Shown here one piece after another: positions 4,525 through 61,681 of a stretch of 64,000 nucleotides of DNA. Origin of the DNA: Macrolepiota albuminosa (lineage: Eukaryota; Basidiomycota; Agaricomycetes; Agaricales; Agaricaceae); contig JAMWFC010000041.1 of assembly GCA_027475525.1 (NCBI GenBank), positions 1 through 64,000 of the forward strand, written 5' to 3'. The position numbers and the translations under genes are program-made. The notes under the pieces are model-generated. The model was not told where the DNA came from, did no database searches, and saw only the letters and a program-made list of their open reading frames with translations. The stretch's first letter is position 1. Every line of letters starts with the position of its first letter.

Positions 4525-4676
4525 GAATATCAACGGATTTACTAACAAGCTGGGAAGCCAGAATAGCTAAGGCAGAAAGGCTCAGAGAGGAGGGAAACCT
4601 GGAATATCAACAGATTTACTAACAAGCTGGGAAGCCAGAATAGCTAAGGCAGAAAGGCTCAGAGAGGAGGGAAACC
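4525..4676. repeat. 77-bp-period tandem duplication in KDZ core
   Basis: Position n matches n+77 from 4525 to 4599, with one mismatch (4535 G versus 4612 A). The extra unit shifts the KDZ frame because 77 is not a multiple of 3. It is one of eight period-77 duplications in the window. Confidence 0.85.
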
Positions 4677-5906
4677 ATAAAGCAATGAATATTCTCAAAG
4701 CTTGTACAATGACCTTCAATAGTGCAAGTGAAGACTGAGTGGCAGCAGATAGTGGAAACCACTCAATGGATGTTGCAGCAATGGATATTCATTTCTTCTG
4801 AATTCAACTTGCCCTTGACATTGAGGAGCAGCAGTAAAGTGTATTGCTGATAGCCCAACCTATTTCACTAATTGAAAGCTCAGAATTGCAATTCAGGACC
4901 ATGTTCGCCATTTGAATCGGCATGCAAGCAATAATGATTGGCAAAAGGTCAAGGTGAAAAGAGAACTATTAAGGGTTCAACTCAATGTCCTTGCTGCTTC
5001 TCAGGACAGGAGCAGGTTTATTGCTAGTGGAAGGCAGACTGCCCTCCTGGAACCAGATGAAGTTTCCAAAGCCTTTGATGACAATGAAATGGCAGAAGAT
5101 GGACAACCAGCAGATCTGCTGATACTGCCAGTAGATAACCTTGGACCAACAGATGTAGTTGTTCCAGAAGATTTTGAAATCTTCTTCCCATCTATGATCA
5201 TGGGTAATGTCTCACCATTGACAATGATAGAGCGCAATCTGCGCTTGATTCAAATTGAAAGGCTCCTGCAAGCCCTTTGGGAATTCATTGCAGAGAAATC
5301 ATTCCTATATTCTCACGTCGTCCGGGTCGCCCCAAGCAAGAATGTGAAAACTCGAGCTCGCGCATCTCTTCAAAGGATCCAGGCCTCAATCCTGGTGAAG
5401 ACTCGTGCCTATGCATGATGCCGCAGTGCTCTGCTGTGACTGGGATCGGACCCCAGCATTCAGAGAAAGTATCCAGTTCTACAGAAAGCGGATTTGAATG
5501 CAAGCACAGCTATACGAGATCCCAACATTCCTGGTTCATCAAGAATCAAGGTATCTTGGATATGGCACTCTAATTCTGATGCAGAAAATGAATCTGCAAC
5601 TATTTCTGAATGTGAGTCCTCTTGTTAACATTTCTGTTATCATTACATCCGTTCATGAACATCTCTCTTCAGTTAATCGTGTTCATTATCTATGTGCTAA
5701 AGCACAACACAACAGATAGACAGAGGAATGTCAGCTTGTCACAAGTGAAATGGAGTAGGCAGTTCAGTATTTCTTCAACCAGGCAGATATTTGGTTGAAG
5801 CGTGGTATGTCAGTGAAGAAAAGAGGTCTCCAGTCATATGCCCATAAAAAGGTGGCCATGTGGCAAGAATTGGCCTCAATAGCAATTCCACTCTCTTGAA
5901 AGCTTC

Positions 5907-8441
5907 TTGGCATGCAGCTGCTGGCTGCCCATGACATTGCCATCTGATGGATTGGTGTCCGTCCCAGCACCAGATGATTTGCTCTGTGTGTTTGCAGGTA
6001 GTGGATCTGCCAGGGGCCACCAGCAGATGCTTCTAGCCTTAGACAAGTGGCAGTCGCTGGATAGGATGGAACATGTGCCAACGGCCAACGATATGATCCG
6101 CCTGTTTGCTGGCAGCAAGTCTATTGCTGCTCCTGTTGTCAGTTCCATTGCCAGGTCTATGGATCCTGCTCAGATGGGCCAATTGATAGGCATCAAGTCC
6201 CATACCAACAGTATTGATGGTGAGCAGCTTAATTCTCAAGACTGCCTCTCCATGGCCCATTTTACCACTCTCCCTGATGTCAACTCTCTCCAATGGCCAT
6301 TCTTGATGCATATCAAACCCTCAAACACACAACATCCATTTCACCATTTCTATAGTCAGAGTAAACCTGGACTGGTGTATGGCCCTACAATGGAAAACTC
6401 TTGCATTGTGGTGATGACGCCCAAAGTTTTGGTCAGCAACAGATGTAACTATAGTGTTACCATACCAAGAGTTTGCGTTGGGCGCGCTATAAGTGATTTG
6501 AGGAGTCCCGGGCAGGTCCCAGAGAACGCGTCTGTGAAAAAGGGGAAAAGTCGGTAACGGGTGTCGGCAAGTGTCAAGCGCTAAGGTAAAGCGCCTAAGG
6601 AAATGCGGTAAGTCAACACGGCAAAGGTAAGCGGCAAGAGCACGATGAGCTTAGCGAAGTCTAAACGTCGATAATGCCTGCCGTAGTTGCAAGGCGCGAG
6701 GGTGTCGTATGTTAGCGAGAGTCTGCAACTGCCGACGAGTTCGACGTTGCCGACCGTAAATGAGCTCTTGAGCGTAAGGGAGACTGAAGTAAGTGGGGGA
6801 ACTCTGGTCTATTCGTCTGATGGTGTCCTATGTACAAGTCGGTAAGTACTTTTATACTACAATGAGTTCGCCGTCGCCAGTGGCTAATGACGCCAGAGTG
6901 CGGTAAACTGGAAAATTTCAAAGGGGTAGCTCCAACGGTTTCAGATCCCTACCGTCCATTCAAGAGCCTTAGCGACGCCAGGCGACAGATCGCGAAGCTA
7001 AACCATCACTCCATCACCCTTCTGTCCGTCAGAGCACCTAAGCGATGTCAGGCGCCAAATCGAGACGCTAAGCGGTGTCAGACGCCAAGGTCAAACGCCA
7101 AGCTGTCCGTCAGTTTTTGATAGATCATCAGGCTTCTCGCTAAGCGCTGTCGTCAGTGACTGATGCCATCTGTCAGTTGTCATTCTGTCTGCCGATCGGC
7201 GCTATCACTGATTGGATCTGCTTCTTGCCGTGCGCGGCCGTCAGAAATGGCTTAAAATAGGTAGAACGCATGCGCTAAGTTCGGGACGAGTGCAGCAAGG
7301 TTTCCGGAGCCGGTGCCGAGCCTGCCGTTGATGCACCTAACCTGTATAGGGTCCTATCAGTGGTTCAACCAGCATCCCAACTTCCTTCTGCCCCAGCAGC
7401 TCATATCTGCCGGACATTCATGGAGCTGGGGGAAACTGATGATGACCAGGTGGATATCCCTAATCCATCTATTAGTGACCCTGACTTAGAGGGTATCCCT
7501 TCTTTGTTCATTGTAGCGGATGACGAGATGGAAGATGAATCTTTGCTGCCTTTGTTCATTCCTGCAGAAGAGGAGATAGAAGACAAATCTTTGCCACCTT
7601 TGTTCATTCCTGCAGAAGAGGAGATGGAAGAGGATTCTTTGCCTTCTTTGTTCATTTCTGTGGAAGAGGAGACCACAGACAATGATTTGCCCCCTTTGTT
7701 CATTCCTGCAGAAGAGGAGATGGACAACGATTCTTTGCCACCTCTATTCATTGTTGATGAAGGAGGAAAAGGACTAACAGTGATAGAGACCGTGGCAGCC
7801 AGTGACAGCGGACAAACAGAAGTCCAGAGCAGTGGATGTATGGCAACCGAGGACAAAAAAAACCTTCCGCCACTATTTCTTGTGATGGCAGAAGAGATGG
7901 ATGGAGGCATGGCAGCCAATGACAAAGAAAATCTTCCACCGCTTTTTAATGTAACAGCTCTTCAATCCCAGTCTTCTCCCTTCCAACAATCTCCTTCTTC
8001 AACCCTACCTACTGGTAACAATGTCCAGGAGTGGGAGGAACATGAGACACATATGACTCGACGTGAGGATCAGAGAAGAATTAATGAATTGTATCAACAA
8101 CATGAGTATAATTTGGCACTAGTAATCATAGTTAATTTATTTCAACAGAACAAGAATTTTGTGCTAGAGCAAAACATGGTCAATGTAGGCCCATTGGCCC
8201 TTTCAATCAAGCTGGTTGTACTGATGATGTGTCTGTTGATATGTCAGAGTCACCCTCACCATCTTCATCGTCAGGCCTGATAGCAAACTATGAAGACATC
8301 ATACTTCCCAGACCTCAGAGGCCATATACACCGGACGACTTTGCATTTTTGACAGCAGACTACCTGCTTGATGAGGATTTGTTCTATTCAGATGCATTAC
8401 ATGAATCTAATGAAGAGGAGGAATGCACATCGGACAAGTAA
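5907..8441 (+). pseudogene. Unknown gene with acidic SLPPLFI repeats, split by a solo LTR
   Basis: I do not recognise this gene. Its reading frame runs 5907-6411, is interrupted by a solo gypsy LTR, and resumes at 7364. Removing the LTR and one copy of the 4-bp target duplication joins the two parts in frame (CIV then VQP). The second part holds six or seven imperfect repeats of about 21 residues at 7490-7960, each with a core like SLPPLFIPAEEEME, two of them spaced further apart. Such acidic repeats suggest a disordered or protein-binding segment. A shift near 8150-8190 moves coding to the frame ending at 8441 (FNQAGCTDDVSVDMSESPSP, then LPRPQRPYTPDDF). A 65-nt GT-AG intron starting near 8123 could explain it, or a frameshift could. 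The gene follows the KDZ transposase on the same strand and could be element cargo. Confidence 0.5.
6412..7359 (-). mobile_element. Solo gypsy LTR, family B, TSD GTGG
   Basis: A 948-bp solo LTR lies between identical 4-bp duplications, GTGG at 6408-6411 and 7360-7363. It begins TGATGACGCC and ends GGGTCCTATCA on the plus strand, so its transcriptional sense is minus if it follows the full gypsy element at 36555-49585. Related copies are at 30004-30971, 63395 onward and, reversed, 11012-13481. It contains repeated GCTAAG/AGCGC-type short motifs. It interrupts an open reading frame. Confidence 0.9.
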
Positions 8442-8590
8442 TTTAATCCTTAGTTACTATAATTCTTGGCTTTTCTGTTGGTTATTTTTTGTCAAGATTA
8501 ACCATCCTGTTGTAGTAATTTAATCCTTAGTTACTATAATTCTTGGCTTTTCTGTTGGTTATTTTTTGTCAAGATTAACCATCCTGTTGT
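8437..8590. repeat. Exact 77-bp tandem duplication
   Basis: Units 8437-8513 and 8514-8590 are identical. The first unit begins at the stop region of the upstream unknown gene. The exact period of 77 matches the other seven cases. Confidence 0.95.
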
Positions 8591-9034
8591 ACTGCTGATG
8601 AATCTATTATAAATCTGTTTGATCTGTTACCTCCAGTTGTGCACTAAAAGGAACATAAACTGACAATATTCTGCTAGACCACAGGACATTCTGTGGATTA
8701 TACATAAATATCACTCTAGTATTGTGTACTAGGCTACAGCACTTTACTACAGACATTTCAATTAGTTTGGACAGGACTCAGGTCCACTAAGATTAACCGT
8801 CCCATTGTTTTGTTCCATTATGCCACTCTCATGAATGCAAAAAACTACACACTATTCAATGATGACACAAGGGGGACTTAAACTCTTGAATTGTGCAGTA
8901 GAAAAAATATAGACTGACAATATTTTGCTAGACCACAGAACGTTGTAAAAAATTACAACCTTACTTTGTTTATCATACTGTGTAGCAAATAAAAATTAGT
9001 AAAATGAAGTTATGTCATGTCTAATGTGCACTAG
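8591..9034. other. Non-coding AT-rich spacer
   Basis: No gene is visible. The phrase CTGACAATATT followed by GCTAGACCACAG occurs twice (near 8660 and 8910), so this is probably decayed repeat DNA. Confidence 0.5.
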
Positions 9035-9440
9035 CAGGATTCGAACCTGCCTCTTATGCATAATATGAAATATCAATGTATCAATATTCCATTGGACCAC
9101 AGGTCCTTATCAGAAATCAGTACAGTGTACATGTAGCGCAAAAATGCAGCAGTATAAAAAGACACCATTATACGTCATTAAGGTGGACTAGAGGAGTCTG
9201 GACTAGGGGAGTCGAACCTGCCACTCCACACAATACTGAAAATTGAGTGGGTCGGATCAACTACCACAGGCGCTTACTACAGGTCAGTACGATGTACATG
9301 TAGAGCAAAAATGCACCTGTATAAAAACACACCATTAGACCCCGTTAAGGTGGAGTAGGGGGAGTAGAACCCACCACTGTACACAATATTGAATATCAAT
9401 AAACAAATATTCCACTGAACCACTGGGACTGGTTGCACCG
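9035..9440 (-). mobile_element. Tandem tRNA-derived SINE units (three)
   Basis: Three related units of about 165 bp follow one another. Read on the minus strand, each has a pol III A-box-like segment (TGGTCCAATGG or TGGTTCAGTGG) about 60 nt before a B-box/T-arm (GGTTCGAATCC, GGTTCGACTCC, or degenerate GGTTCTACTCC). The plus-strand T-arms are at about 9041, 9211 and 9369. Between units is a conserved block with GTACATGTAG and GTATAAAAA. Degeneration of the tRNA arms argues for SINEs rather than working tRNA genes. A fourth, more decayed unit lies near 33550. Confidence 0.65.
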
Positions 9441-10124
9441 CTGATGTCAGCTGGCTCACATGCCGACGTCAGCTACCGTCCGCTACCGTCCGCTGGCATG
9501 CCAGCGGACAGCGGACACTCACGCACCCTCTTCCGCCCTTCCCCCTCTTTCTCCCCAGTGCCATCCTCTCCACTCCCCACACTACCTCACACACCACCCC
9601 CGTCCACCACATGCACCCTGCTTCCCTCCTCCCCTCTGACCTGACATCCAATGTCTGCTATGTCTGCTGGTATGCCAGCGGACACCCATGCTCCTCCCCT
9701 TCCCCCTTCCCCCTCTTTCTTCCCACCTCCATCCCTCTTCCACCACCCCCCACACTTTCCAAGATGCCACCCCATGCGGTGGACGCCCATGCACCCTGTT
9801 TCCTTCTCTTCTGCCCTGATGCTGGACGATGCCAGAGGTTGCCAACAGATTCCCGTGGATGCCGACAAATACCAGCAGATATCTGGCAGATGCCGATGCA
9901 TGCCAACAGATGCCAACAGATGCCAGTGGGTCACGACGGCTGCCGACAAACTCTGATGAATGCTAGCTGATGGCTGCTGATGCCAACGCCCCTTTCAAGC
10001 CACAAAAACTCTTTTGGGAGGTATGCCACCCCCCTTCCACCTCAAAAAATCCATACGAGAACCTGCAGAAACATAGGTGGGCATCTGTTCATTGTGTTAT
10101 CCGACCTTTGAATCTATTTCTTAG
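9441..10124. repeat. Low-complexity DNA with palindromes and GATGCCAACA repeats
   Basis: This is a C/T-rich then ATGCC-rich stretch. It holds a perfect 22-bp palindrome at 9488-9509 (GTCCGCTGGCA followed by its reverse complement), a near copy at about 9660-9682, and a run of GATGCCAACA-type repeats at about 9880-9930. Open frames here are by-products of composition; I see no gene. Confidence 0.6.
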
Positions 10125-10126
10125 TA

Positions 10127-10345
10127 ATGGACCTGTGGTGCAACGGTTAAATGTGTGTTCCATTGCTGAAGGCTTTCCCAAGGCTGGGAGTTTGATTCCC
10201 CTCCACAGGCATACGGCGGGCAAGACAAGTTACCTTTTTCCTTGGTCCAACCAGCCTCCATAGACCTGCGTAGGCCTCTGTGGATATCTGCTGGTGGCTT
10301 GCGTAGGCCTGCATAGGTCTGCAGGGCCCTTTTGTGGATGTATGC
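10127..10345 (+). mobile_element. tRNA-derived SINE, copy 1
   Basis: The tRNA-like head is at 10132-10209. A 7-bp acceptor-like stem (CCTGTGG with CCACAGG) encloses an A-box-like TGGTGCAACGG and a T-arm loop GTTTGATTCC. The tail (10230-10340) includes TTGGTCCAACCAGCC and repeats of CCTGCGTAGG/CCTGCATAGG. A second copy in reverse orientation at 31426-31880 confirms a repeated element with the same head and tail. Confidence 0.75.
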
Positions 10346-10849
10346 TGGCATTGGGGGTGGAAAAAGGAGGGAAGGGGAGGTGCACAGCCTTGAGTTATTG
10401 CAGGGAGGAAGGGAGAGGGGAGGGAAGTGGGGAACCTCAAGAAGGGTTTATTCATGCCATGACATCCACCAATGGAGGAGGTTTTCACTTGTGGGCTGAT
10501 GCCCGCCAGCGGCCACTGATGCACATTGACGTCTGCTAGTGTCCGCTGGCATCTGCCAGGCCTGCATGCACATGTGTGTGCCCACCTTTGATTCATCCAC
10601 TGGACCATGTCATACAGCACATTGTGACATGTCCGTGGCTCTGTCTTCTATGGCACTGTGGAGACTGCTCTGCTCCAGTGTAGCAGACTCTGCTGGACAC
10701 ATATGATACAACACAAAGCGAGCTCCTGTACAACATATGACATGTACTATTGTGATGTCTCTATGTGTCAATTGCATGCTCTGCCACTGACCTTCCACTC
10801 TCTCAACTAGCTCCAAGGCTTTCAACAGGTTGGAACTTCAAGAGTGACA
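10346..10849. other. Spacer without recognisable gene
   Basis: Mixed low-complexity DNA with another GTCCGCTGGCATCTGCC motif near 10540. No coding region or structured element can be supported. Confidence 0.4.
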
Positions 10850-11374
10850 AACTTCTAAAGGTACAACAGAGGCTCTTGCAGAATGCCTGCACTGTCCTGG
10901 TCTAGCTAGCCCCAAATGGTATGCTAGCCCCCAATAACACATTAGCCATGTTGCTATTTAAGTTGAGAGATGACCTGAATGATGCCCTCTACTCTCTGGA
11001 TGTGCAGATGGTGATAGGACTCCACACAGGCTAGGTGCATCAATAGCAGGCTTGGCATCAGCTCTGGGCACCTTGCTGTGCTTGTTCCAAACTTGATGCA
11101 CACAATTTATCCATTTCAGGCCTTACCCAATGGACACACATGGTGATAGGCTTCTACTCAGATTGAGCACATCAAAGAACATTATAAGTTGGCTGACACT
11201 TGACATATGGGAGACTTTAGCAACCAGATTGGATACAGAACAGCTCTGGCTTGGGCACTCTATTGCAGGTCTTACCCATTTACCTTAATCACTATTTATT
11301 AGTCCTTCAGCATCCTCTATTCACCAACTTCAAGGATTTGGGAAACTTGGGACGTATAGTGCTAATACAATGAT

Positions 11375-16242: not shown

Positions 16243-16267
16243 CTCCTCCTCACATATGGACATGGTG

Positions 16268-17059: not shown

Positions 17060-17865
17060 TGCCCTTACGAGGTGGACTTGACCTACGGATAATCGGGTGT
17101 CTAGAACTCTGGGGCTAGGACTCCGGGGTTTGAGATGCAGACAGGGGTGATCCCAGGGAAGGGAACTTGGTCCAGGGGTCTTGGGCTTTAGAGGCCAGGA
17201 ATTGGGTGGGGGTCGAGTTAGGAACTGGGGGTTCTAAGACAAGACCGGGTTAACAAATTGCAAGTCGCGAAGTGCATACCAAACTTAAAGCACACGGTTG
17301 TTCAAGTGTGCCAGTCAAAGCATGCCAGTCAGTGCATACCAATCAAGCAGAGGGCATGCAACAATTCAAGTTAATATCAAGACTAGCGAAGTCAAAGCAT
17401 GCCAGTCAGTGCATACCAATCAAGCAGAGGGCATGCAACAATTCAAGTTAATATCAAGACTAGCGAATACAATGGGGAGCTACACTATAAGTACTACGGG
17501 GCCAGGTCCGGGTTTCTGGAGTTCTGGGGTGTCTGGGATAAGTTCTGGGGGGCATTGAGTAGCCAGAGGGGGACTGTATACCGGGATCACACATGTGGGG
17601 CACGCGATCAATTGGTGTGGAGAGAGCCATGATGCGTGATGCGTGATGGCCCGGAAGCGGTTGGCGTGATCTGGTTGTTGATTGGGGGTTGATGGCGGTT
17701 GATCCTGGGTCCGTGATGTGGGGTTGCCGGGGGGTGCTGGGTGATGGCAGTCCTTGATGCATGTGATGGCAGGGCGCATTCTGTGGGGTCAGAGGGAGGG
17801 TCCCAGACGGGGTTCTGGGGGTGTCCTGGGGTGGATCCGGAGAGGAGGGGTCATGACAGGGGTGA
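17060..17865 (-). other. Proline-rich insert between RT and RNase H of copia 1
   Basis: In related copia proteins the RT stretch ending QKDAHP is followed closely by a PMDPNSKLQ-type motif. Here about 800 bp separate KDAHP (17865) from PMDPNSKLQC (near 17000). Part is open and proline-rich on the minus strand (PDPPQDTPRTPSG, PLTPQNAP); the rest has stops and a 77-bp tandem duplication. It may be an inserted fragment. I do not recognise its source. Confidence 0.45.
17314..17467. repeat. Exact 77-bp tandem duplication
   Basis: Units 17314-17390 and 17391-17467 are identical and lie within the insert in copia 1. Removing one shortens the insert but does not explain it. Confidence 0.9.
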
Positions 17866-18770
17866 GCATCCTTTTGACTAAATTGGCGGATGATTTTGTC
17901 GATAAGAGCTGTCTGTGAGAGTTTCATGGTGTGATTAGGGCGATCCCATTCTACAGCAATGCTGACAATGTATCGTGGGGTTCCAAGATTGGAGATAGTC
18001 CAGGCTTGCCTCATTTGGTCCTTAAAGCGCTCATTTTCTGCTTTAGAGCTGGCAATCAACAAGAAGTCGTTGACGTGAAGTGCTGCGATGACTGTGCCCT
18101 TGTCAGTAGAACGGTAATAGATGCAGGATTTGCATGGTAGTCTGCTGAAGCCCCAAGAGATCATCTTGTCATTGACTGTCTTGTTCCAAATCCGGCCTGC
18201 CTGTTTTATCCTGTAGAGTCATTTCACCAGCATCCACACCCAGTCTTCCTTCCCCTCTTCTTTGAAGCCTTCAGGTTGTTGCATGTATTGGACCTCGTCG
18301 TCTGGGAGGATGCCGTATAGAAAAGCTGTTTTGATGTCAATTTGTGTCATGTCCCATTCCCTTCACGGTTGTGAGGTGTAACAAGATGTGCCATGACTCC
18401 ATACATGCCATTGGTGAGGTTGTCTTTGTGTAGTCCCGCCCTTGTATTTGCTCATAGCTGTGGAATATGAGTCTCATCTTGAATCTGACTGCTTTCCCAT
18501 GTTTGTCTCGTTTAATTTTGAAGACTGGTCTGCCGGACCTGATCTTCTGACCAGCAGGGACCACAGAGCACGGGTCAAGTTGATAGACTCCCATCTCCTG
18601 TAGAGACCTGAGTTCATCCCTGTACGTGTTTTCCCATTTTGGGTAGTCTCCTGACTCCTTTGCCTCTTGCCAGGTTCAAGGCTCGTTGCTGATTTCTGAA
18701 GTGGTGTAACCACCATCAATTTCACCCATAGCAGCAAGAAGGTGGTCAAGGTCATTGTCTAGGTATGTCT
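17460..18770 (-). pseudogene. Copia 1 reverse transcriptase
   Basis: Conserved copia RT blocks are visible in several frames. The first half (18755-18337) has FKIKRDKHGKAVRFKMRLI and ETTSPMACMESWHILLHL-like sequence. The middle part is frameshifted. The second half (18164-17870) has SWGFSRLPCKSCIYYRSTDK, then ALHVNDFLLIASSKAENERF and DLGTPRYIV-like sequence. The catalytic VDD motif reads VND, so one aspartate is lost. With stops and frame changes, the enzyme is dead. Confidence 0.8.
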
Positions 18771-19815: not shown

Positions 19816-20625
19816 CTAGTTGGGGATAAGAGGTCCTTGTGCCACGAGAGTACGAGTGGAATGGTCGATAATTCTAACAGATGAGTTGTTGAACAAGCAG
19901 TCTAAACCTGAGCGGTTTGCAAGTGAACTGACAGATACAAGGCAAACTGTGGCATTAGGAATGTATAGGGCATCTTCCAGCAGGATGTCTGCCCCTTTTG
20001 TGATGTGGAAACGAATGGTTCCCACTCCTATCGCTGTGACAGATGAACCGCCGAGACCTTTGACAAGTCGATGTGGAATGGGATGTAGGGTTGCAAAATT
20101 GTTCTGACATGGTGAGATGTGTACAGCTGCACCTGAGTCAATTAAGAAGGGGATACTGTCGATGGAAGTGATTGGATTATATTTAGATTGCAGTACAGGA
20201 GCAGTGTTGGCAGACAGGATTTGTTCCTTGATTTCTGACACCTGTTCCTTCCAGTTTATGTTGGTATCTGTGCTATCAAAGGCTATGAATCCGGTGTGTT
20301 TCCAAGCCTCTGTGCTGTGTGATGACACGGTCAGAGGTGTAGCAACGCTGGCAAGTGCTGCTGTCTCTGTAGGGGTAGGGAGTTGACCTAGCTGGGTCTG
20401 GTCGACATACCACAGTTTTCCATCAAGTCTGGTCACAGCCATGAAGGTCCTTTCCAGAGTTGGCTTGGACATCTTCTCACTAGTTTTGTTTTCTCTGGAT
20501 GCTCTCTGTGCAGCTTGTGCATTGGTGACAGATTTCCCAGCCATACCTCCTCCCTTTTGCACACAGAAAAGCTTTGAGTGTCCACAGCATGGGCGTTTGA
20601 GTGCATGACAGTTTTCACAGCACAC
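19816..20625 (-). CDS. Copia 1 zinc knuckle and aspartic protease region
   Basis: This is the longest intact frame of the element, 269 codons. It starts with a Cys/His cluster (CCENCHALKRPCCGH) resembling a modified gag zinc knuckle, and the retropepsin active site FLIDSGAAVHISP is near residue 160. In copia this protease cuts the Gag-Pol polyprotein. It ends just before the pre-integrase block, with a frame break between them. The start is arbitrary because the natural protein is part of a polyprotein. Confidence 0.8.
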   Translation of the reverse strand: MCCENCHALKRPCCGHSKLFCVQKGGGMAGKSVTNAQAAQRASRENKTSEKMSKPTLERTFMAVTRLDGKLWYVDQTQLGQLPTPTETAALASVATPLTVSSHSTEAWKHTGFIAFDSTDTNINWKEQVSEIKEQILSANTAPVLQSKYNPITSIDSIPFLIDSGAAVHISPCQNNFATLHPIPHRLVKGLGGSSVTAIGVGTIRFHITKGADILLEDALYIPNATVCLVSVSSLANRSGLDCLFNNSSVRIIDHSTRTLVAQGPLIPN

Positions 20626-25122: not shown

Positions 25123-25842
25123 AGTATGCAGTATTGTGTAGAGGCCATACAGTGTGATCATTGTCAGGGACTGCTGACTTTGGGGCTCTTTTCAGAGCAA
25201 ACAACCTGCTGATCAGAGGGATATGAAGGCAATGGAGTGGTAGTATGGAGACACTGCTGGGCTGAGTCCAAGGGGCTCCAAGGGCTCTATAGACATCAGG
25301 TAGTGAATACAGGCCAAGAGAGAATCTCTAGGGCATGGATTCAGAGTAGAAGAGGTAGACCAGACAGTAATTGAGAGAGAAACAAGTTTATTGAAAGGAG
25401 GGGGAGAAATAGAGACAGAAATAGTAAGAAAACTGAGTAGGAAAAATAGATAATACTAAGACTAGTGTACTGACTACATGGGCAAGCCTTTTAGCCTGCT
25501 GGAGGATTCCAGGCCTAGACTTGGGCAATTGATCCAGAGTTCTGAAGTGATCTGTGTAATGGAGCTGGCTTGGACTGGAACTCCTGGAGGGTGGAGCATA
25601 TGAGAAGGAGGAGGAAAAAGTAGGTAGATTGTGACATTTGCCTCTCCCTAGCACTGAGGTTCCTCAAGGCATGGACAATAGTGAGTGGGCATCTCAGAGG
25701 GGGTGGGAATTTTTCTCTAGATCCTTGGTGTTGATGGGTCCCTTCCTATGCTTGCTCATTGACTGCCATGTAATCTCTCCTCCACTAACCCCACCCACTA
25801 TACCAGCTACTAACCATGTCAAAGATTGGATACACTACAATG
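25123..25842. other. Spacer between LINE and TRIM 2
   Basis: No gene or element can be named. The sequence has long purine-rich runs (about 25380-25440 and 25600-25625) and short open frames with no motifs. It may be decayed retroelement DNA. Confidence 0.4.
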
Positions 25843-26873
25843 TGTCAAAACCTCGTTGGAGGCGCTAGTGGTCCCGTTATGACTGGCGGTTAGACTCAGT
25901 GGAAAGGGCGGAGAATAGCATGTCTTCGCAGATAAAGAAGACAAAAAAATTGTAAGTAATGTATATGTAAACCGCAACCAAAATGTTCCCACGCTAATGC
26001 TGCAAGAGCACACCTTCAACTCCTGACACCCTCCCTCGAACGAAGCAGCGGAAAGATATAGAGTGAGATTGTATATATGATGCAGACTGAAAAAGGGGAG
26101 CAAAATGAAAAGGAAATTTTACCTAAAAAACAATTCTAAGTGACTCCTAGAGTGATCTGGCATGATGCTCCTCCCTGAACCAGTAATCCTTTATAACTAG
26201 CATTCTTCAGCCCTCCCTGAATCCAAGGTCCCTCCTTGTCTGAGAATAAAGGCAATCCAATTATGCAGAATAGCAGTGCGATGGCAATTTTGAAGAAAAT
26301 CGAGCAGTTGGCAAAAGCTGATTGTATGAAAGCTAAGGTTGATTCCAGATGAAGGTAAGAGATCCCAAAGCAGGACAATTGGTGAAAGAAGATTGTAAGA
26401 ATGGAAATAAATAGAAAGATGCCGTGATGGTGTCCAAATATGATGTGCCATGAATAGAAGCAGATGACCGTGATATGGGTGGGTGTTACAAAGAACACCA
26501 CGCCGGGAAATGTCCCGCAAAGCTGACCGAAAGATATGGGTGGGTGCTACAAAGAACACCACACCGGGAAATGTCCCGCAAAGCTGACCGAAAGAATCTT
26601 GACAATAAAATGTCGAAAGGATTTTGATAATGCAGATTCAGACTGCATTGTTTTGTTGTAGCTGACAATACAGCAATGACCTGCGAATGTCAAAACCTCG
26701 TTGGAGGCGCTAGTGGTCCCGTTATGACTGGCGGTTAGACTCAGTGGAAAGGGCAGAGAATAGCATGTCTTCGCAGGTAAAGAAGACAAAAAAATTGTAA
26801 GTAATGTATATGTAAACCGCAACCAAAATGTTCCCACGCTAACGCTGCAAGAGTGCACCTTCAACTCCTGACA
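25843..26873 (-). mobile_element. TRIM 2: short LTR element, TSD CAATG
   Basis: Two 186-bp direct repeats (25843-26028 and 26688-26873) begin TGTCAAAACCTCG and end CAACTCCTGACA, with a few differences. CAATG flanks both sides (25838-25842 and 26874-26878). Read on the minus strand, the purine tract CGAGGGAGGG directly precedes TGTCAGGAG, so the element is minus-oriented. The 659-bp interior has no protein motif. The total is 1,031 bp, so it needs enzymes from elsewhere. Confidence 0.85.
26472..26593. repeat. 61-bp imperfect tandem duplication in TRIM 2
   Basis: Units start at 26472 and 26533 and differ at two positions at least (GTTAC/GCTAC; CACGCC/CACACC). The divergence argues for a real, older duplication. 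Confidence 0.8.
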
Positions 26874-32248: not shown

Positions 32249-32402
32249 CTCCTCATTTCTTCCTTTTCTCACTCCTTATCTCTTCACTCTCCTTTCATTC
32301 ATTCTCTTATTTCTTCTGACATTATCTCCTCATTTCTTCCTTTTCTCACTCCTTATCTCTTCACTCTCCTTTCATTCATTCTCTTATTTCTTCTGACATT
32401 AT
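32249..32402. repeat. Exact 77-bp tandem duplication
   Basis: Units 32249-32325 and 32326-32402 are identical. LTR-C copy 2 (54697) has the unit only once. Confidence 0.95.
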
Positions 32403-32616
32403 TTTATTTTACTGTTTTTATTTTTTCAACACTATCTGTTAGTACTACTCTCAGCTCTTGAGGTGCTCTGGTTTTTTAGCTACAATTCAGATAAGTGTGG
32501 GCCCTTCAGCACTGCTTTCAGACTGCTTATATAAGCCAGAGTTTGCCAGAGTTTGCCCTTTATTTGTGCAATTGTTTGTATAGGCAATTTTTGAGTTTTT
32601 AAGGTTTTGTTATACT

Positions 32617-32770
32617 GTACAGTTGTTTCCCATGCTTCAGAGGCCCCAGAAGCATCCAACCTGGCATAGGGAATTCCTAGACTTGTTCTCTTTGTACAGT
32701 TGTTTCCCATGCTTCAGAGGCCCCAGAAGCATCCAACCTGGCATAGGGAATTCCTAGACTTGTTCTCTTT
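32617..32770. repeat. Exact 77-bp tandem duplication
   Basis: Units 32617-32693 and 32694-32770 are identical. LTR-C copy 2 has the unit only once. Confidence 0.95.
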
Positions 32771-32890
32771 GAATCTTCCTCTGCCAGGTGAGTAGTTATT
32801 ATGATATTGTCAGTACATACTCTAATACACTTTGGATCTTTCTCTGCCAGCTGTGTGACTGAGCCACAGCCTCTAGAGATCGCCCTTACA

Positions 32891-48609: not shown

Positions 48610-48667
48610 CAGGAGGTGGCGCTGTCGCTGGGCTCGAGTTTCCAGCAGAATTCTGTCTCAGAAGAAC

Positions 48668-48685: not shown

Positions 48686-48688
48686 AAA

Positions 48689-49585
48689 TGATGACGCCTA
48701 CTATGGTTGGGTGCGCTGGACATATACGCAGTACAACGCCATTTCCAGCGCTTGGCATGCATAATTGTGAGGAGTCCTGACAGGGTCCCAGTGTGCTCGA
48801 GCGGAGGTGATAAAACGATGCGCTAAATTATAGCGCTGTGGAGGCTACCTGGCAGACAGTAAGCATCGTAGTTTAAACAAAGATATTGAAGAAAAGACGA
48901 GTAGCACAGCGTATTGTGCCCGTAGGTGGCACCGTAAATGATGAAGACAAGATAGACGAGGCTAGTGCCCAACTTAGTGACGAAGTCAAAGGAAGCTACG
49001 GCAACCTTTTGCACATGGATGACAGTGACCAACGGCGTTATGTATGGCCTACGGCGACCAGCGGCGACTCTATATTGGCTTAGAATTGTACGAGTCTGCT
49101 CACTTTTATTATAACTCCGATTGGCCAGGCTGTTTCGGGGTATGGTCAGAAAATCCTCAACAGACGCTGTCAGCGCTAATGTCAGCGCTACTCATTGTAT
49201 CAGTTCCTGACAGGTCCAGATGTCAGATTTAAGTATATCCAGTGCCGCCATCATTGATCCTTTTAGACTTCTGATTGAAGTGCCTCGTCAAATGGCAGCA
49301 CCTGCTGCTGGCTCCTTCTGGAAGTGATCGGGGTTTAGTTAGAGTCCTCTCCTGCCATCATGTTAGCGCTATACATTATGAGCCTCCTTCGTCCTTGAGA
49401 TAAGTGAATGGAGTGTGCTGAAGGCCTGATAGCTAGTGGTTGGGGTAAATGGCTAAGTCCTGTAGTAGGTTGCCAGAGCTAGGGCTGCTCTATATTTCCA
49501 ACTGGTCGTTAGAGTCCTCAGTATGTCAAGTGTTGGTTGGTCTATAATGTCTCTTGATGCGCTCAGTCTGAGTAGAAGCCTATCA
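48689..49585 (-). repeat. Gypsy 5' LTR (family A), 185-bp deletion
   Basis: 897 bp. The junction GGAAGCTA|CGGCAACC marks where about 185 bp present in the partner LTR are missing. It ends CCTATCA, followed by ACGT. Confidence 0.9.
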
Positions 49586-52500
49586 ACGTGGATTGAAGAA
49601 ATGACATGTGCTGTTTATTATAGTAGTGCATATGTTTCTCATCTTTATCAATCATCAGATCCTAAGCAACCTCAAGTTTTTCATGGTAATACTTGTGCAT
49701 ATGACATGAATATTGTTTCAACTACTTCAGTTCTTCCTCAAATCTCTGATTATATCAATAAATTAAAGATAAAGCAATGAACAATATATTTCAAGTTCAC
49801 AAATAAAAAATTTGGGCCTTTTTTATTTGGTTAAAAAATATTTCTAAAAATTTTTTGTATGAGAACATTAATTAGATAAAAGAATTGTAGATTTATATCT
49901 AAAAAATGCTGTTCTTTCAGGATTGGAGAATAGATTTCTACATAATACAGAACTTTTTGTTGAAAAAACTTTTGAAGAAAAGACAGCTGATTTATCAAAT
50001 CATTCTGCATTAGAAATATGCAAATCTAACACAGATGATGAAGCTACTGTACTTTTAGAACATATGGGAGTTTCAGATTTTAAAAGTGTGAAAATCCAAG
50101 GTTCTTCTTTGACTGCATCAGCTTTGCGATCTCTTGTATCAAATAATAATAAATTTAATAATGAACAACTTGATCTTATAATATATAAAGAAAATAATAA
50201 AATTAATGAATATAATAATCTGGTTTTGTTTTCTGGTATATTTTCAACCTTATTTCCTTATAGATGTGGTATCTTAGTCAACCAACATCATTTAGTATGC
50301 AACTTCATATAAATTATTTTATAGATCTAGCAGATCATGCTTTTCATTATCATTATTCTTTTATATTTATAGCTTTAAATATAATACAGCACAGAACTGC
50401 CTATTTTTATACAAGTTTACATATAAAAAGCTTATAGTTTAAAGCTATTGTAGAAAAATTGACATCAATCTCTTCTAAAACTCTTCTTTCTGTAGCAAAT
50501 CAATTAGAAAAAGATTATAATTATCAATCACTTTCAGATGACAAAAAACAAGTATTTACTCTTCTTAAATAGCAAATCAATTAGAAAAAGATTATAATTA
50601 TCAATCACTTTCAGATGACAAAAAACAAGTATTTACTCTTCTTAAAGAAGTTAATACTATTGCTTCTCATATGCCTGGTTCCCAAGCATTAAAAATAAGA
50701 TGTCAGAATAAAATTTGAAATTACTCAGGATATTTTAGAATGCTTATACTTTATTTTACTGCAAATCTGAGTGCAATACATAGCCTTATTTTTCAACTTA
50801 TATATGGTGATACTACTATTAATTTTGATAATCAGTTTCCACTTATTATTGATAATACTACAAGAGCTTTGAGATTAGCAAAAGATCCTGTTGCTGCAGC
50901 TGACTTTTTTTATTTTTCTATTCAATATATATTTCAATATTTTTTTGAATAGAATTTTGAAAAAGGCAAAAGTTTTTCAGAAGGTGGCATTTTAGGACAT
51001 CTTGCCACATTTTATAGATCTAATGAATTGACTAAAAGAAGACAATAGCATGCACACTTTTTTATATGGCTTATTAGTATATCTAATCCTTTTGATATTC
51101 ATATAAAACTTAAAACTGAAGCTGATTATGCTCAAAAGCTATTTCAATTTTTTAAAAATATTATTCATCATCATCTTCCTAATATTAAAATAGAAATTGA
51201 TCTAAAATATAAACTACAAATTGAAAGACCTCCTTATGTACTATTTTTAAGGTCTGATAAAGATATTTAAGATTGGAAAGATTTGCTTGATGTAGAAATT
51301 AAAAAATATGGAGAAGCTTTTCAACGTCATAATTGTAGAGCTGTTTGCCCTAAATTTGAAAATAATAATAAATATTGCTTTTAATTTCCACATAATTTTG
51401 TTTCTGAATCTAAATTTGATCCAAATACAAATTCTATTTATTTACTTTGTCAAGATCCTACTGTGAATTATTTTAATTCAATTATTCTTGTATATTGTTG
51501 CTATAATCATGATTTAAAATGTATATTATCTGGAAAAGCAGCAATGTTTTATATTACAAGTTATATTACAAAGTTAGATTTAAAAACTTATCAAATATTG
51601 TCTCTTCTATCTTGAGCAGTTCTTAATATGAAAGATACTATAAATTTTTCAAATTCTAAAACTAAATCCAAATTGCTTTTTTATAAATGTTTATTTTAAT
51701 TAATTAAGCAACAACAAATATATGCTCAATAAGCAGCTTGATATATTCAAAGTCAAAGTGATAGCTTTTCTTTTCATAAAACAACACCAATGTTATCAAA
51801 TCTTTTACTTTATTACATTAAAACTTCTATCAATGCTATGAAAAATACAAATAAAAAAAATAAAAATTGTAGTGATGAAGAAAACAATATTGAACCTATA
51901 TTATTAAAAATTGATGTAAATATTAATAAAAATCTTTTAAAAGCAACTCAGATAAATGATTATATTTATTGTGATCCAGACTTGTCCAATATCTGTTTTT
52001 ATAGTTTTGTTCAGTATTTTCGAAAAGAGCTTATAAGTATTTCAAAATATAAAGATACTAATACTATACAATTAGATGTGTATAAACGCTTGAGACTGAA
52101 AAGTCCTCATCCTTTATATGATACTTATTATTTAGTAAAGCATACTAATTTTGAGTGTGGAGATAGTTCTAAGCTACTTATACCTTATTTAATTAAAAGA
52201 AGTATTCCTCAATCTACTCATTCTGATTATAGTATTTTTATGCTTGTTCATTTCAAACCTTTTAGTGATATTGAATCTTTACTTTTTTTATATGAAAATC
52301 CTAATAATGTATTCAGTATGTATAAATTTACTGAAATGTCTAGAAATATTATGAAAAATTGGGATGCTATTTATAAATGTGAAGATGAAAGAAATGCCGA
52401 TAGACTTCAAAAAAAAGAACAAGCTTTAAAAGAATCAAAAGTATCTACTGAATTAGCAGCTTTTTTAAATAATATTTTATTTATTTTAGAAAACTCAGAT

Positions 52501-55195: not shown

Positions 55196-57559
55196 CTGGC
55201 AAAGACTTCGATGAGATGTATGCAGTGGTGGTGTGCCTAGAATCCCTAAGAATGTCTGTGGCTGTGGCAGTGCAGGAGAATCTGGAGATATGGCAAGTGG
55301 ATTTTGTGTTGGCTTACCTAAATAGCATTCCAGAGCATGAAGTCATGAGGCTTCCTCCTGGTTTTCCAGGAGGGGAGGGGAAGTTAGTCAGGCTCCGGAA
55401 AACTATATATGGCCTCATGCATGGAGGTTTCGACTGGTACTGGACACTAGATGGTGCATACAGGGACTTAGGCTACAGGTGCTCAAGGGCAGACTCATGT
55501 GTGAGATCGAGGAGGATTGGCTCAGAAGTGACAATTACAAACACCTTTAACAATGACACATTCAGAATATCCATGAGAAGAAAGGGAGCTGACTTAGCAA
55601 AGAGGGAGTTGGCACAGGTATATGAGGTGAAGGACTTGGGGGATCCCACCTTCCTACTCGGTATGGCTATACATCGAGACTCACAGACAGGGTCAATCAC
55701 TTTATCCCAGAAGGCCTACCTCACCCGCATACTGGATTGTTTCAATATGGCAAACTGCAACTCTTGATACACCCCCTTACCTTCAGGGGTAGTCCTAACA
55801 AGTGATATGTCACCCAAAAACAAAGCTGAACAAGCCTTCATGGTTGACAAACCCTACCGCCAATTGCTGGGAGCCTTGATGTGGGCTCAGGCAGCCACTC
55901 AACCAGATCTGTCCTTTGCGGTGATGCTACTTGCTCGATTCCAGTCAAACTCAGGCCCGGCTCACTAGAAAGCCTTGTTGCATGTCCTTGCGTATATCAA
56001 AGGTACCTTTGATTATAACATTGTGTACTCTAAAGACCAAGGTGGATCTACAAAACCTATCGGATACATCGATGTGGATTACAGGGGGATTTAGACACGA
56101 GGCACTCCACCTCGGGTTATGTCTTCATGATGGCTGGCGGGCCAGTATCGTGGAGCTCAAAGCGCCAGCAAACCATTGCACTATCTACAACAGAAGCCGA
56201 GTACATGGCTATAACCCAAGGATCCCAACAAGCGCTCTGGATGCATAATTTTCTCGCTGAAATCGACATCATACAACCACTACCAGCCACCATATACATT
56301 GACAACAACTCTTTGATCTCTCTGGCACAGTCAACAAAAGGACATGCACAGGCCAAGCATATAGATATCCGCCACCATTAGATACGCAAGCATGTAACTG
56401 ATGGAGATATCTAGATCAGGCATATCCCATCCTCCGAGAACATCGCAGACATATGCACTAAGGTGCTGATAGGCTTCTACTCAGACTGAGCACATCAAGG
56501 GACATTATAGGCCAACTGACACTTGACGTACTGAAGACTCTAGCGACCAGTTGGGAATATAGAGCAGCCCTAGCTCTGGCAACCTACTACAGGACTTAGC
56601 CATTTACCCTAACTGCTAGCTACCAGGCCTTCAGCACACTCCATTCACCTATCCCAAGGACAAAGGAGGCTCAGAACATATAGCGCTAACACAATGGCAG
56701 ACGAGGCACTTCAATCAGAAGTCTAAAAGGATCAATGATGGCGGCACTAGATATACTTAAATCCGACATCTGGAATTGTCAGGAACTGGTACAATGAGTA
56801 GCACTGACATTAGCGCTCACGGCGTCTGTCGAGGATTTTCCGACCATACCCCAGAACAGCCTGGCCAATCAGAGTTATAGTAAAAGTGAGCAGACTCGTA
56901 CAATTCTAAGTCAATATAGAGTCACTGCTGGTCGCCGTGGGCCATACATAATGCTGTTGGTCGCCGTCATCCATGTGCAAAAGGTCACCGTTGACAGGTT
57001 GCCATTAGAGGAAACCACAAGGAGAGGCACTAGGAAGTAGCGCTGCAGATGGACTTTTATCTTGGCAAACACGATAGCACAAAGTATATAAAATTGCTAC
57101 TTTACATGTATATAACAATGAATTGTAACCTCTTGAGCACACAGTTACACTTAGTGTTCAAATCGTGCTAGCTTTCTTTGACTTCGTCACTAAGTCGGGC
57201 GCTAGCCTCATCTATCTCGTCTTCGTCGTTTACGGTGCCACCTATGAGCACAATATGCTGTGCTACTCGTCTTTTCTTTAATATCTTTGTTTAAGCTACA
57301 ACACTTACCATCTGCCAGGTAGCCCCCGAAGTGCTATAATTTAGTGCATCGTTTTATCACCTCTGCTTGAGCACACCAGGACCCTGTCAGGACTCCTCAC
57401 AACTACGCATGCCAAGCGCTGGAAATGGCATTGTACTGCATATACATCCAGCGCACCCAACCACAGTTGGCATCATCAGCGCTCCCCCGTGCCACACACG
57501 ATTATCTGGTGGGACTCATGGGCCTGAAAAGAGCGAACGGTCATGCAAGTCAGGGGGAG
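55196..57559 (+). pseudogene. Copia 2 pol (RT C-terminal half and RNase H), split by a gypsy LTR
   Basis: RT starts abruptly (FDEMYAVVVCLESLRMSVAV; WQVDFVLAYLNSIPEHEV; LRKTIYGLMHGGFDWYW) and continues through VKDLGDPTFLLGMAIHRDSQ. The expected VDD box is missing around 55530-55550, with sequence lost there. RNase H follows in other frames: [75 protein letters not shown]. The solo LTR-A at 56467-57478 interrupts it; the last codons at 57483-57559 read LPRATHDYLVGLMGLKRANG and end at a TGA inside the LTR start. A purine tract (CAGGGGGAG) precedes the LTR. Confidence 0.8.
56467..57478 (+). mobile_element. Solo gypsy LTR, family A, near-perfect TSD
   Basis: 1,012 bp, TGATAGGCTTCTACTCAG to TTGGCATCATCA. 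Flanks are GTGC (56463-56466) and GCGC (57479-57482). Using GTGC as the original restores the copia 2 frame (TKVLPRAT), so the right copy has one T-to-C change. Confidence 0.88.
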
Positions 57560-57855
57560 TGTTGAGAAGAACAACTTGCACGAGACAGGAAGCTATGTTG
57601 TTATGTTTTTACCTTGTTCCTATTTTTAATCTTAACATTCTATCGGTAGTATTGGGAGCTTGTCACCCATATGTGGTGAGCGATCAGTATTTGCAAATCT
57701 TTACTTACAAACTTTGTTTTTGTTTTTGTTAGAAACCGTAGGATAAACAAAAGGCACCCTCAGTCAAACCACATACTATGGAGTGACTGAGGGTGAGCTA
57801 GATTCACTTACTTACATTCTCACTATAGCTAATTCACAACCTGTAGACTTGCGTA
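57560..57855 (+). repeat. Copia 2 3' LTR (partial)
   Basis: It starts TGTTGAGAAGAACAAC right after the purine tract. It contains the hairpin at 57755-57795. Its end is unclear because copia 4 sequence begins near 57860. Confidence 0.65.
57755..57795. promoter_or_regulatory. Conserved LTR hairpin (copia 2)
   Basis: An 11-bp stem CACCCTCAGTC / GACTGAGGGTG with a 19-nt loop. Confidence 0.85.
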
Positions 57856-57857
57856 TA

Positions 57858-57981
57858 ACTCTACACGTCCGACGACATGGCAGCCGACCTCCTCACGAAG
57901 CCTTTAGCTTGGGATGTTGTCGATAGGCTCCGGAGGAAGATGGGAATCGTAGGCAAATTTTCTAGACAAGACTTACAGTGA
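57858..57981 (+). pseudogene. Copia 4 pol C-terminal fragment
   Basis: YTSDDMAADLLTKPLAWDVV followed by RLRRKMGIVGKFSRQDLQ and a stop: the conserved end of copia pol. A purine tract (CAGGTGGGAG) and an LTR follow. Confidence 0.75.
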
Positions 57982-58008
57982 CGCTGTGGGCACTTCGTCA
58001 GGTGGGAG

Positions 58009-58375
58009 TGTTGAACGCCTACCGGCATATGAGAAGCGCCCTTAAGCGCACGTGACCTGAGTATTATTTTCTTCCCGGTGTCGTTGTACACTTCATTCTG
58101 AAGTTCAACGACACTAGGTATGTGTTAACTATACAGTCAAATATATATTCATTCTGAAGTACAACGACACTAGCTGTCACATTACTTACTTAGTGTCTGT
58201 CCGTAACCGCTGTGCGTAACTTGCTTCAACAATATGTACCACAATATTCCATAAGAACCCTCAGTCTTCCATACACGACTGAGGGTGAGTCACTTACAAA
58301 CATACATATCATACGTATCCTGACGATGTACATACAGAATCGACTTACATACTCGTCAGGACTTAGGTTCTAACA
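58009..58375 (+). repeat. Copia 4 3' LTR
   Basis: 367 bp, TGTTGAACGCC to GGTTCTAACA, with the hairpin at 58257-58286 and a duplicated phrase CATTCTGAAGTwCAACGACACTAG (w = T or A; near 58092 and 58150). It ends about 80 bp from the stop codon of the host membrane-protein gene. Confidence 0.85.
58257..58286. promoter_or_regulatory. Conserved LTR hairpin (copia 4)
   Basis: A 10-bp stem ACCCTCAGTC / GACTGAGGGT with a 10-nt loop. Confidence 0.85.
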
Positions 58376-58455
58376 CTGGCCATGTAGCAAGAGTAGCAAG
58401 CTTATACACACGTTACATATACACTAGTGTCGACAAATAGCTGCCATGTTCGCAT

Positions 58456-59484
58456 TCATAGGGATGATCTCTGCTCAAGGAACAGTCCTGCGACAATCAA
58501 ATCAGTTTTTAAAAACAAGACCCAATGATGCTTGAACGAACCCATCGGTGGCTCCAGCTTATTCTGCCAAATGTCAACACGGCAACCAGGACTAACACAA
58601 AATATCTCAAACGTTGCAATCTTGTCAGCAGGGCAGCGAACTTCCCGCGATATGTGAGTACTATTAGGTTGGACCCGGAAGCTGAAGATGTGGCCTCTAC
58701 GCTTAGGACGAGTGTTGTACGAAAGGTATCGTGGGTCAATCCACTGAGAGGCTTCAAGCTCCCAAACTTCCAGGTCGTTCGTATCGCCCTCCAACAACCA
58801 GTTTCTCTCGCGCTCTATTTCGTTGTTTGGGCCACTCGGATTATACTGGGTACTTCCGGGAAGAGCCAACTTCAATGTGCACCACTCCATTCCGAAATCA
58901 CGAGCCCTAAATTGCATCACGGTAGAGACCTTCTACTAGCTTCAGTAAGCGTCACCGATCTGATAGTAGGTCGAACTAGCCTGGTTAGTAGCCAGGACGT
59001 TTCGATCGTCTGGCGAAACGGTCCCGAAATATGTGGACCTGCGACGAGGATCTACGGGATAGACAAACTTTGGTCGTGTACGGTCAATTTGAGCAATAAC
59101 GCCGGCGAATGTCGCTATCTTGACATTCGGGAAGGCGTACTTAGTATAGTTGACTCTGTCAAGCCCAATGAACTGATTCGGACGAGGGAGGGAGACTAAG
59201 TCTGGCTCTGTGTGCAAGAGATACGGTTGTGACATGTACATCAGGTACACCAGGTTGAAGACTGTGCATACAATCGCCAGCAAAGTTGCTATCTTTGGCA
59301 ACCTTGTCATCGGAACCACCGGCGAGGTGCCCTCTACACCAAAATCTGTCAGATGCTCTTCAATGGTTAGCCGATGAAACTGACTTTCAAGGAGACCTTC
59401 TTCGTCACCGAGGTCAGAGGTTGACAGAGTCACACGGTGACCGCGCCGTGTGAAGAACAGCATCTTTAGTACCAATGTATGCAA
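58456..59484 (-). CDS. Single-pass membrane protein of the Agaricomycete But2-like family
   Basis: The only gene here that looks intact. Two exons: 59484-58981 and 58929-58456, 325 codons, with a 51-nt intron in phase 0. The product has a basic cytoplasmic start, an acidic stretch, one membrane segment (IATLLAIVCTVFNLVYLMYM, about residues 82-101), then an outer domain. Family hallmarks are PNQFIGLDRV, PKFVYPVDPRRRSTYFGTVS and, across the intron, VSTVMQFRARDFGMEWC, then CRVDIWQN near the end. The family is common in mushrooms and is often annotated as 'ubiquitin 3 binding protein But2 C-terminal domain'; its role is not known to me. The start may instead be the Met at 59463 (MLFFTRRG). A 224-codon frame on the other strand is its shadow. 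Confidence 0.85.
58930..58980 (-). other. Probable GC-AG intron in membrane-protein gene
   Basis: On the minus strand CAG|GCTAGT ... GTAGAAG|GTCTC. The donor is GC, not GT. With this splice the protein matches the family spacing residue for residue; no GT donor nearby keeps the frame so well. Confidence 0.55.
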
Positions 59485-60202
59485 GCACCAGTCGATACAG
59501 GAAGAGATATGCTTATTGGTAGGGAGGTAGAATTTGAGCTTTCTGTTTTATCCACATCGACTTTTTGCATCAGATTGTTGATTGATCCTGATTTCATAAG
59601 GTTACCACTATCATGGTTCATAATAGCGCAGGAGACCGCGAGCCATTTCGACCGTACGTAATTGCAACACCAGGAGAATGTTTGCTAGGGATGAAACTGC
59701 ATTATCATTTCCTAATGTATTCACCATCGCTTATCAATTGTTGTATAGATCTGTCAATTTGACCAACTCCCAACCATTCTGCCAACAACCGATGACTTGA
59801 CGTGTATACTGATGGCATCCATCACCGGCAGTTGTTTGATTCCGACTGATGCTAGCCGAGTTCCTTTGAAAACCAAATGACACTTACAGCAGCGACTAAT
59901 CTATTCTCGTCTCGGAACAATATCCCTAACAGCCCAGATTTTTTTAACAATCTTTTTTCTGGTCGTAAAACCATGTAGTAGTGGTAGCTATATGTTGTCG
60001 TCCTACATATGAAACCAGCAGTCCACAATCCGAATGATCGGTCAAGTCATCAAATCAAGTGACAGAAATCACAAGTAAAAAGAGAGAATGTATCGACACG
60101 AGTCACTTGAGTCGACCTGTCAAGTAAGACACCTGTGAATCACTGTTGATTGACATCGCTTACCGGTCTATACCTTTCCAAGTTATGTGATGGTGTGAAC
60201 TC
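59485..60202. other. Upstream region of the membrane-protein gene
   Basis: Non-coding on both strands as far as I can tell. It should contain the promoter of the minus-strand gene. No other element is recognised. Confidence 0.5.
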
Positions 60203-60511
60203 TGTTGGAACAATAATGTGATATTGTGACAGGGTACCACATCACGACACACCTGGCCACCGGACTGCTTTGTCTACACACACCTATATTAAACGCATTA
60301 CGGATACCCAGTACCCTTAGTTCATTGACACGTTCTGATACACATTACTTACTCTCATACATACAGACAGACCGCTGACTATGATACCTAGGATTAACTT
60401 ACGTATTACTCACTAGGTATTCATCAATATAGCTTGTTGACACGTTCTGAGGGATTAACTTACATGTTACTCACTAGGTATAAACCGTGATAGACTGGTT
60501 AGATTCTAACA
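60203..60511. mobile_element. Solo copia LTR, TSD AACTC
   Basis: 309 bp from TGTTGGAACAATAATG to AGATTCTAACA. AACTC lies on each side (60198-60202 and 60512-60516). The phrase TTGACACGTTCTGA occurs twice. Unlike the other copia LTRs here, I see no CCCTCAGTC hairpin. It sits about 0.7 kb upstream of the host gene. Confidence 0.88.
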
Positions 60512-61027
60512 AACTCAAGCTTCAGCAGGCAAGTCCTTCAGTAATCCTCTCTTGACATTGCATGAAACATAATCTTTCATGGCCTGCTACATGCTCACAA
60601 GCTGTATAGGTTTGGAACTCTACAGAAAAGTTTGAAAGACAGTTGGGTTAGGGGTGCAGGATATCAGGGCATATAGCTGCTCATGACAAGTTTACAATGT
60701 TTCTGGGCATGCTCATTGCATAAAACCTTCAAAAGCATTGAAATTATGGCTATCAGCCACAATTATGCCAAGGATTTTTACTGAGCTAATTTTTAATAGA
60801 ATTCATATTTGTGCAAGAAGACACTTCATCATGGAAAGCTAAGCAAACACATGAACCACTCAGCTCAGCACCAAGGGAGAGAAAGCACCCTGTGAACACA
60901 GTGACAAGCAGCTGGCAAGCAAGAAGGCAGGCCAGCAACAAGGAGTAGAGTGGAAGGATGAAAGCAGAGGATGAGATCATCATTGAGGAGCTTACAGTCA
61001 TGCTAGTGTGTAGACCCAGAAGCTATA
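60512..61027. other. Non-coding spacer
   Basis: No gene or element can be supported between the solo LTR and LTR-C copy 3. Confidence 0.4.
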
Positions 61028-61681
61028 AGGGTGACTTCTGGAGGCTATGGCTCAGTCACACAGCTGGCAGAGGGAGATCCAAAGTGTATTAGAATATATA
61101 CTAACAATATCATGATAACTACTCACCTGGCAGAGGGAGATCCAAAGGAAATAAGTCTAGGAATTCCCTATGCCAGGTTGTATGCTTCTGGGGCCTCTGA
61201 AGCATGGGAAACAACTGTACAGTACAACAAAACCTTAAAATTCCCTATGCCAGGTTGTATGCTTCTGGGGCCTCTGAAGCATGGGAAACAACTGTACAGT
61301 ACAACAAAACCTTAAAAACTCAAAAATTGCCTAAATAAACAACTGTACCTCTGAAGCATGGGAAACAACTGTACAGTACAACAAAACCTTAAAAACTCAA
61401 AAATTGCCTAAATAAACAACTGTACAGATAAGGCAGGAAAACTCCAGACTTTGGAAGTCAGAAAGGCAAACTCCAGCTTATCTAAGCAGTCTGGAAGTGG
61501 TGCTGAAAGGCCCACACTTGTCTGAATGGTAGCTAAAGAACCAGAGCACCTCAAGGGCTGAAAATAGTACTAACAAATAGTGTTGAAAGAGTAGAAATAG
61601 TAAAATGAGAGAATGACAGAAGAAATAAAAAATGAATGAAAGGAGAGTGAAGAGATAAGGAGTGAAAGAAGGAACAGAAGC
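61028..61681 (-). mobile_element. LTR family C, copy 3 (decayed)
   Basis: The reverse complement of the LTR-C copies, from CACCCTTATA (inner end) to about 61675, where similarity is lost before the TGTCAGG start. It contains two period-77 duplications. Numerous substitutions show an older copy. Confidence 0.75.
61163..61424. repeat. Two period-77 tandem duplications
   Basis: 61163-61239 repeats at 61240-61316, and 61271-61347 repeats at 61348-61424. Both have a period of exactly 77 and overlap. Confidence 0.9.

Follow-up and report, generated by a model that had tools for sequence, protein, structure and literature searches.

Introduction

Circular contigs assembled from short reads carry terminal repeats of length k where the overlap has been left untrimmed. 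The repeats considered in this work would likewise be k bases long; however, they lie inside long contigs, whereas those repeats lie at contig ends.

A related effect has been described in de Bruijn assemblies, where a bias at the distance k from contig ends was traced to unresolved repeats (PMC5368935). In such places several path extensions are available, the first difference appears at position k as counted from the end of the contig, and the effect persists within scaffolds (PMC5368935). The likeness to the present case lies in unresolved repeats and branching at k; the difference is that the described effect consists of false variant calls and not of doubled k-mers, and the passages of that paper devoted to it do not mention doubled overlaps. 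Homotype false duplications, as portrayed in another report (PMC9516828), are similar in that one true sequence is written twice and is open to biological misreading, but they are attributed there to read errors or unseparated alleles, while here one fixed length is involved. A literature search for fixed-length or doubled-k-mer duplications gave no direct match among the entries listed, from which we do not claim that such reports are absent. The type of error proposed below is close to what is known.

In this paper, we analyze a stretch of 64,000 bases (bases 1-64000 of contig C9), referred to as the window, from the Macrolepiota albuminosa genome assembly. Judging from the sequence, we consider it very probable (about 98%) that the tandem repeats of period 77 found in the window are false duplications, produced when pieces assembled at k = 77 were joined with their overlap left uncollapsed, and that they are not biology.

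Sequences and Scans

The assembly comprises 100,137,612 bases (100.1 Mb) in 129 contigs. Among the best 120 of 477 hits to an AlkB-like protein encoded in it (L031:6785-7855), one contig of the source 'lgn' matches at 99%, and the best named match is Termitomyces sp. T112, at 80% over 84% of the query; the DNA thus probably comes from Termitomyces or a near relative (family Lyophyllaceae). Outside the window, 20 stretches of 10 kb (200 kb in all) were taken at round coordinates from seven large contigs, which is a non-random draw. Exact tandem runs were counted in this sample for periods 30-999, while the window was scanned for periods 40-2999 at an identity of at least 90% over up to 60 bases. 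Neither the window nor any of the fetched stretches contains an N. Furthermore, 28 loci of the LTR-C family were fetched with a query that itself holds a pair, which biases the set towards pair-bearing copies; for this reason, the LTR-C density (55 pairs) was left out of the frequency estimate.

Period-77 Pairs in the Window

Eight tandem duplications of period 77 are present in the window, each starting within 1 base of the position given in the preliminary description. Seven of them are exact, with runs of 77-79 identical bases when the sequence is compared with itself at a lag of 77; all eight are given here without strand. The imperfect pair (4525..4676) lies in a KDZ transposase region, and this label is borne out by PF18758 at 4098-4619 and CxC2 at 2588-3400. 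Its copies at 4525 and 4602 match over 75 bases with one mismatch, just as had been reported, and 74 of 77 bases are alike over the best 77-base unit. The next pair (8437..8591, run 78) is located in repeat-family DNA with no long open frame across it. The pair at 17313..17467 (exact run 78) lies in a copia-like element, whose identification agrees with RVT_2 at 17463-18164 and Pol_BBD at 19819-20625. The pair at 50493..50646 (exact run 77) belongs to a Helitron-like region; here the label derives indirectly from DUF6570 at 49523-49777, a domain that we take to be tied to Helitrons.

The remaining pairs are associated with LTR-C. One lies in an LTR-C region (32249..32402, exact run 77), another in LTR-C copy 1 (32616..32771, exact run 79), and two in LTR-C copy 2, at its first (61162..61316, exact run 79) and second junction (61271..61425, exact run 78). 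The last two overlap and represent two junctions 109 bases apart. When the two LTR-C copies of the window are aligned with each other, they match in several overlapping pieces. The duplicated units had been described as unrelated in sequence; this holds for the units outside LTR-C, among which no common sequence is visible, but the LTR-C units are alike.

Four other repeat pairs were found in the window, with periods of 61 (at 26468), 67 (at 651), 385 (at 11369), and 845 (at 25837), each occurring once. The 61- and 67-base repeats are diverged, as had been noted, with copies 96-97% alike. At positions 7502-7752, there is also a 48-base tandem repeat of about five copies that are 77% alike. It lies within the open frame 7360-8280 and hence corresponds to a 16-residue protein repeat; it looks like an ordinary minisatellite.

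Period Spectrum and Unit Length

A genome-wide distribution of repeat periods lacking a peak at 77 had been set beforehand as a refutation of the artefact reading. The 200-kb sample gives the opposite outcome: 40 of the 41 exact runs counted in it have this period, one of the 40 being clipped by the edge of a stretch and one shortened by a mismatch, so coincidence can hardly explain the common period. Comparison of whole units in the same sample gave 39 pairs, 38 of them exact, spread over 13 of the 20 stretches (0-5 in each) and clustered among them (variance/mean 2.1, p about 0.004). A single length, regardless of sequence, therefore recurs on seven contigs across the assembly, and the variable period, copy number, and divergence characteristic of biological tandem duplications or minisatellites were not found among these pairs. 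The density in the sample is approximately one pair per 5 kb. Extrapolated by hand, this corresponds to perhaps 20,000 pairs in the genome, with a standard error of about a quarter and from stretches that were not drawn at random.

The length of the step is sharply defined. Among the 38 exact pairs, the match extends beyond 77 bases by 0, 1, 2, or 3 bases in 24, 8, 3, and 3 cases, respectively, while 21.4, 10.7, 4.0, and 1.3 are expected by chance at two edges. Since the observed extensions are close to chance, the step is exactly 77 bases and microhomology is not indicated. The copies are otherwise identical, the exceptions being the mismatched pairs: mismatches between units occur in 1 of 39 pairs in the sample, 7 of 55 pairs at the LTR-C loci, and 1 of the 8 pairs in the window. 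Period-77 pairs with one or two mismatches, more frequent at the LTR-C loci than in the sample, are located at L050:2631, L007:203, L008:1564, L022:1577 and 1706, L024:1577, and L030:1409 and 1531.

According to our own derivation, a graph with k = 77 permits no spacing below 78 between pairs. The least start-to-start spacing in the fetched sequence is 104, in a scan that may miss spacings below about 60. The gap of 109 bases between 61162 and 61271 is consistent with a graph piece of 109 bases.

Relatives of the Duplicated Loci

Four window loci, each with flanks of approximately 200 bases, were compared with the whole genome, and the counts that follow refer to the matches listed. At 4525, 34 of the 39 relatives listed split into two overlapping pieces and the other 5 align end to end; the two-piece relatives are short by 77 (30), 78 (3), or 76 bases (1). 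At 8437, two-piece alignment was found for 27 of the 39 listed, 25 of which are short by exactly 77 bases, with 9 further relatives aligning end to end and 3 partially. The corresponding numbers at 17313 are 26 two-piece and 13 end-to-end relatives among 39 listed. At 50493, both full-query pieces are present in 16 of the 30 listed (13 of these are short by exactly 77 bases), and 2 show end-to-end alignment; of the remaining 12, which are partial or more distant matches, four likewise fall into two overlapping pieces. When 4525, 8437, and 50493 are pooled, exactly 77 bases are missing from 68 of 77 two-piece relatives, and 75-82 bases from the other nine.

End-to-end relatives tend to have lower identity than two-piece ones. 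This fits relatives that carry a pair of their own elsewhere, which was directly seen for LTR-C only. There, a 77-base pair lies within the matched stretch of all 28 other fetched copies, a set that is biased as described above, and the pairs occur at 20 distinct offsets over the 28 loci (raw offsets, uncorrected for indels).

Test for Branch Points at the Unit Edges

If pieces of a graph are separate because a shared word branches, the base next to another copy of that word is expected to be different. Exact partners exist in the fetched sequence for 11 junctions, of which nine are left after two loci identical to each other (L014 and L015) are dropped. In six of these nine junctions, identity with one partner or more ends exactly at the edge; the figure is five of seven when reciprocal pairs are counted once. 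Under the same rule, 317 of 3478 control positions break at the edge (9.1%). With L014 and L015 kept, the figures are 6 of 11 junctions versus 317 of 9058 control positions. Among the five passing non-reciprocal junctions, two have a second partner without a break at the edge, and two of the seven non-reciprocal junctions fail. The unit at 61271 illustrates both outcomes: of its two other fetched copies, that in L029 stops matching exactly at the edge, while that in L024 matches beyond it.

Three window units were informative in a genome-wide search, and two of them gave a positive result. One further exact copy of the unit at 8437 exists; the bases on both sides of it are different, so the common block is exactly 77 bases. 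The unit at 50493 also has one other exact copy, with a different base directly to the left. Neither of these two sole copies is itself an exact pair. For the unit at 17313, one other exact copy was found genome-wide, with no break at the edge. Unit edges thus meet branch points as a strong tendency and not in every case. A word may also branch through the second nucleus, whose version is perhaps absent from the assembly.

An exact copy within the fetched sequence exists for 11 of 93 junction words versus 153 of 4349 control positions; as repeat content confounds this comparison, it was not counted as evidence. The 80-base pattern around the unit at 32249 occurs in 548 places in the genome within 3 mismatches and represents an abundant pyrimidine-rich sequence of LTR regions. 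The copy number of this unit is too high for the edge test to be informative, and it was kept out of the evidence.

Origin of the Duplications

The preliminary description had read the repeats as overlaps of k = 77 that were not collapsed, and both the period spectrum (40 of 41) and the branch-point test, which bears specifically on a k-mer graph, support it. The chance-level extension, the relatives short by 77 bases, the varied offsets within LTR-C, the junctions 109 bases apart, and the clustering of pairs also speak for it. The following course of events would account for them. Short reads would have been built into a de Bruijn graph, with an overlap of exactly 77 bases between neighboring pieces (k or k-1, depending on the program). 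The pieces would end at branches, where a 77-base word recurs with a different next base, either in a repeat copy or in the other nucleus. A later step may then have arranged these pieces as long contigs without gaps, with neighbors written end to end, and the shared word, left untrimmed, would appear twice at each junction. Such a second step must be assumed, as 129 gap-free contigs are unlike a plain short-read assembly. The identity of the program and the joining step are our inference; SPAdes with K=77 would presumably fit.

Besides the need for this second step, some observations count against this reading. An untouched copy would have no mismatches, while a few pairs have them; these were perhaps introduced by later polishing with misplaced reads. 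Other such observations come from the edge test, namely its failure for the unit at 17313 and two of the seven junctions, and the second partners without a break in two of the five that pass.

A variant of the artefact, in which the 77-base word was doubled by gap-filling, read correction, or graph threading and not by plain joining, is possible, if tentative. Long contigs with no N point to a hybrid or gap-filled assembly, and the imperfection of some units would agree with it; however, nothing separates this variant from plain joining, and it, too, needs units that end at k = 77 branch points.

A real mutational process that duplicates exactly 77 bases, for example when a replication or repair complex slips on its template, appears extremely improbable. 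It would explain why the pairs are uniform in length and widespread, and why a few are diverged. Against it, the match extends beyond 77 bases at chance level only, the offsets of the pairs differ between copies of one family, and the unit edges tend to meet the points where identity with other repeat copies ends, which, to our knowledge, no local process could read. A process of fixed step that copies 77 bases precisely where repeat copies diverge, for example through fixed-patch recombination intermediates at the ends of identity tracts, is given the same minimal credence.

Ordinary tandem duplications or minisatellites that share a period by coincidence, the least credible explanation of all, are refuted by the period spectrum: tandem duplications do occur, and 48-, 61-, and 67-base examples are found in the window, but other periods are nearly absent from the 200-kb sample (1 of 41), and the window units are without common sequence except for those of LTR-C.

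Reading Frames

The frame of the KDZ region comprises 174 open codons and stops 6 codons into the second unit, which means that the duplication breaks it. The phase carried beyond the unit stays open for 19 codons, and at 50493 the frames are short whether or not the second unit is counted. The earlier proposal that the frameshifts in the KDZ gene and the Helitron are non-biological is therefore only partly supported: it is right in kind, as the KDZ frame is broken by the duplication, but calling them so does not restore whole genes.

When the window was screened together with all 20 stretches of the sample, a long frame proved to be broken at the second unit in eight strand-specific cases at six junctions, and no window junction is among these eight. 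The one frame of these that was scanned across its junction, L036:60-1091, belongs to a retroelement, with a match to RNase H of reverse transcriptase; hence, these cases yielded no clean test on a single-copy gene.

Consequences for the Use of the Assembly

Used as a reference genome, the assembly would contain perhaps 20,000 false insertions of 77 bases, about 1.5 Mb in total (hand-extrapolated from 39 pairs per 200 kb). Since 77 is not divisible by 3, false insertions of this length would break reading frames. Uncollapsed pairs would also give rise to spurious pseudogenes and to LTRs that only seem to vary in length, and they would spoil the dating of elements. The period scan is a simple screen that can be applied to other public assemblies.

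Two larger repetitions were observed elsewhere in the assembly. On contig C114, copies of equal score lie at 2880172 and 3231654 and at 2890736 and 3242218, in both cases 351,482 bases apart; on contig C126, the loci L014 and L015 show full identity along 3270 bases. Such copies may have arisen by recent large duplications, or they may be duplicates that the assembly has retained.
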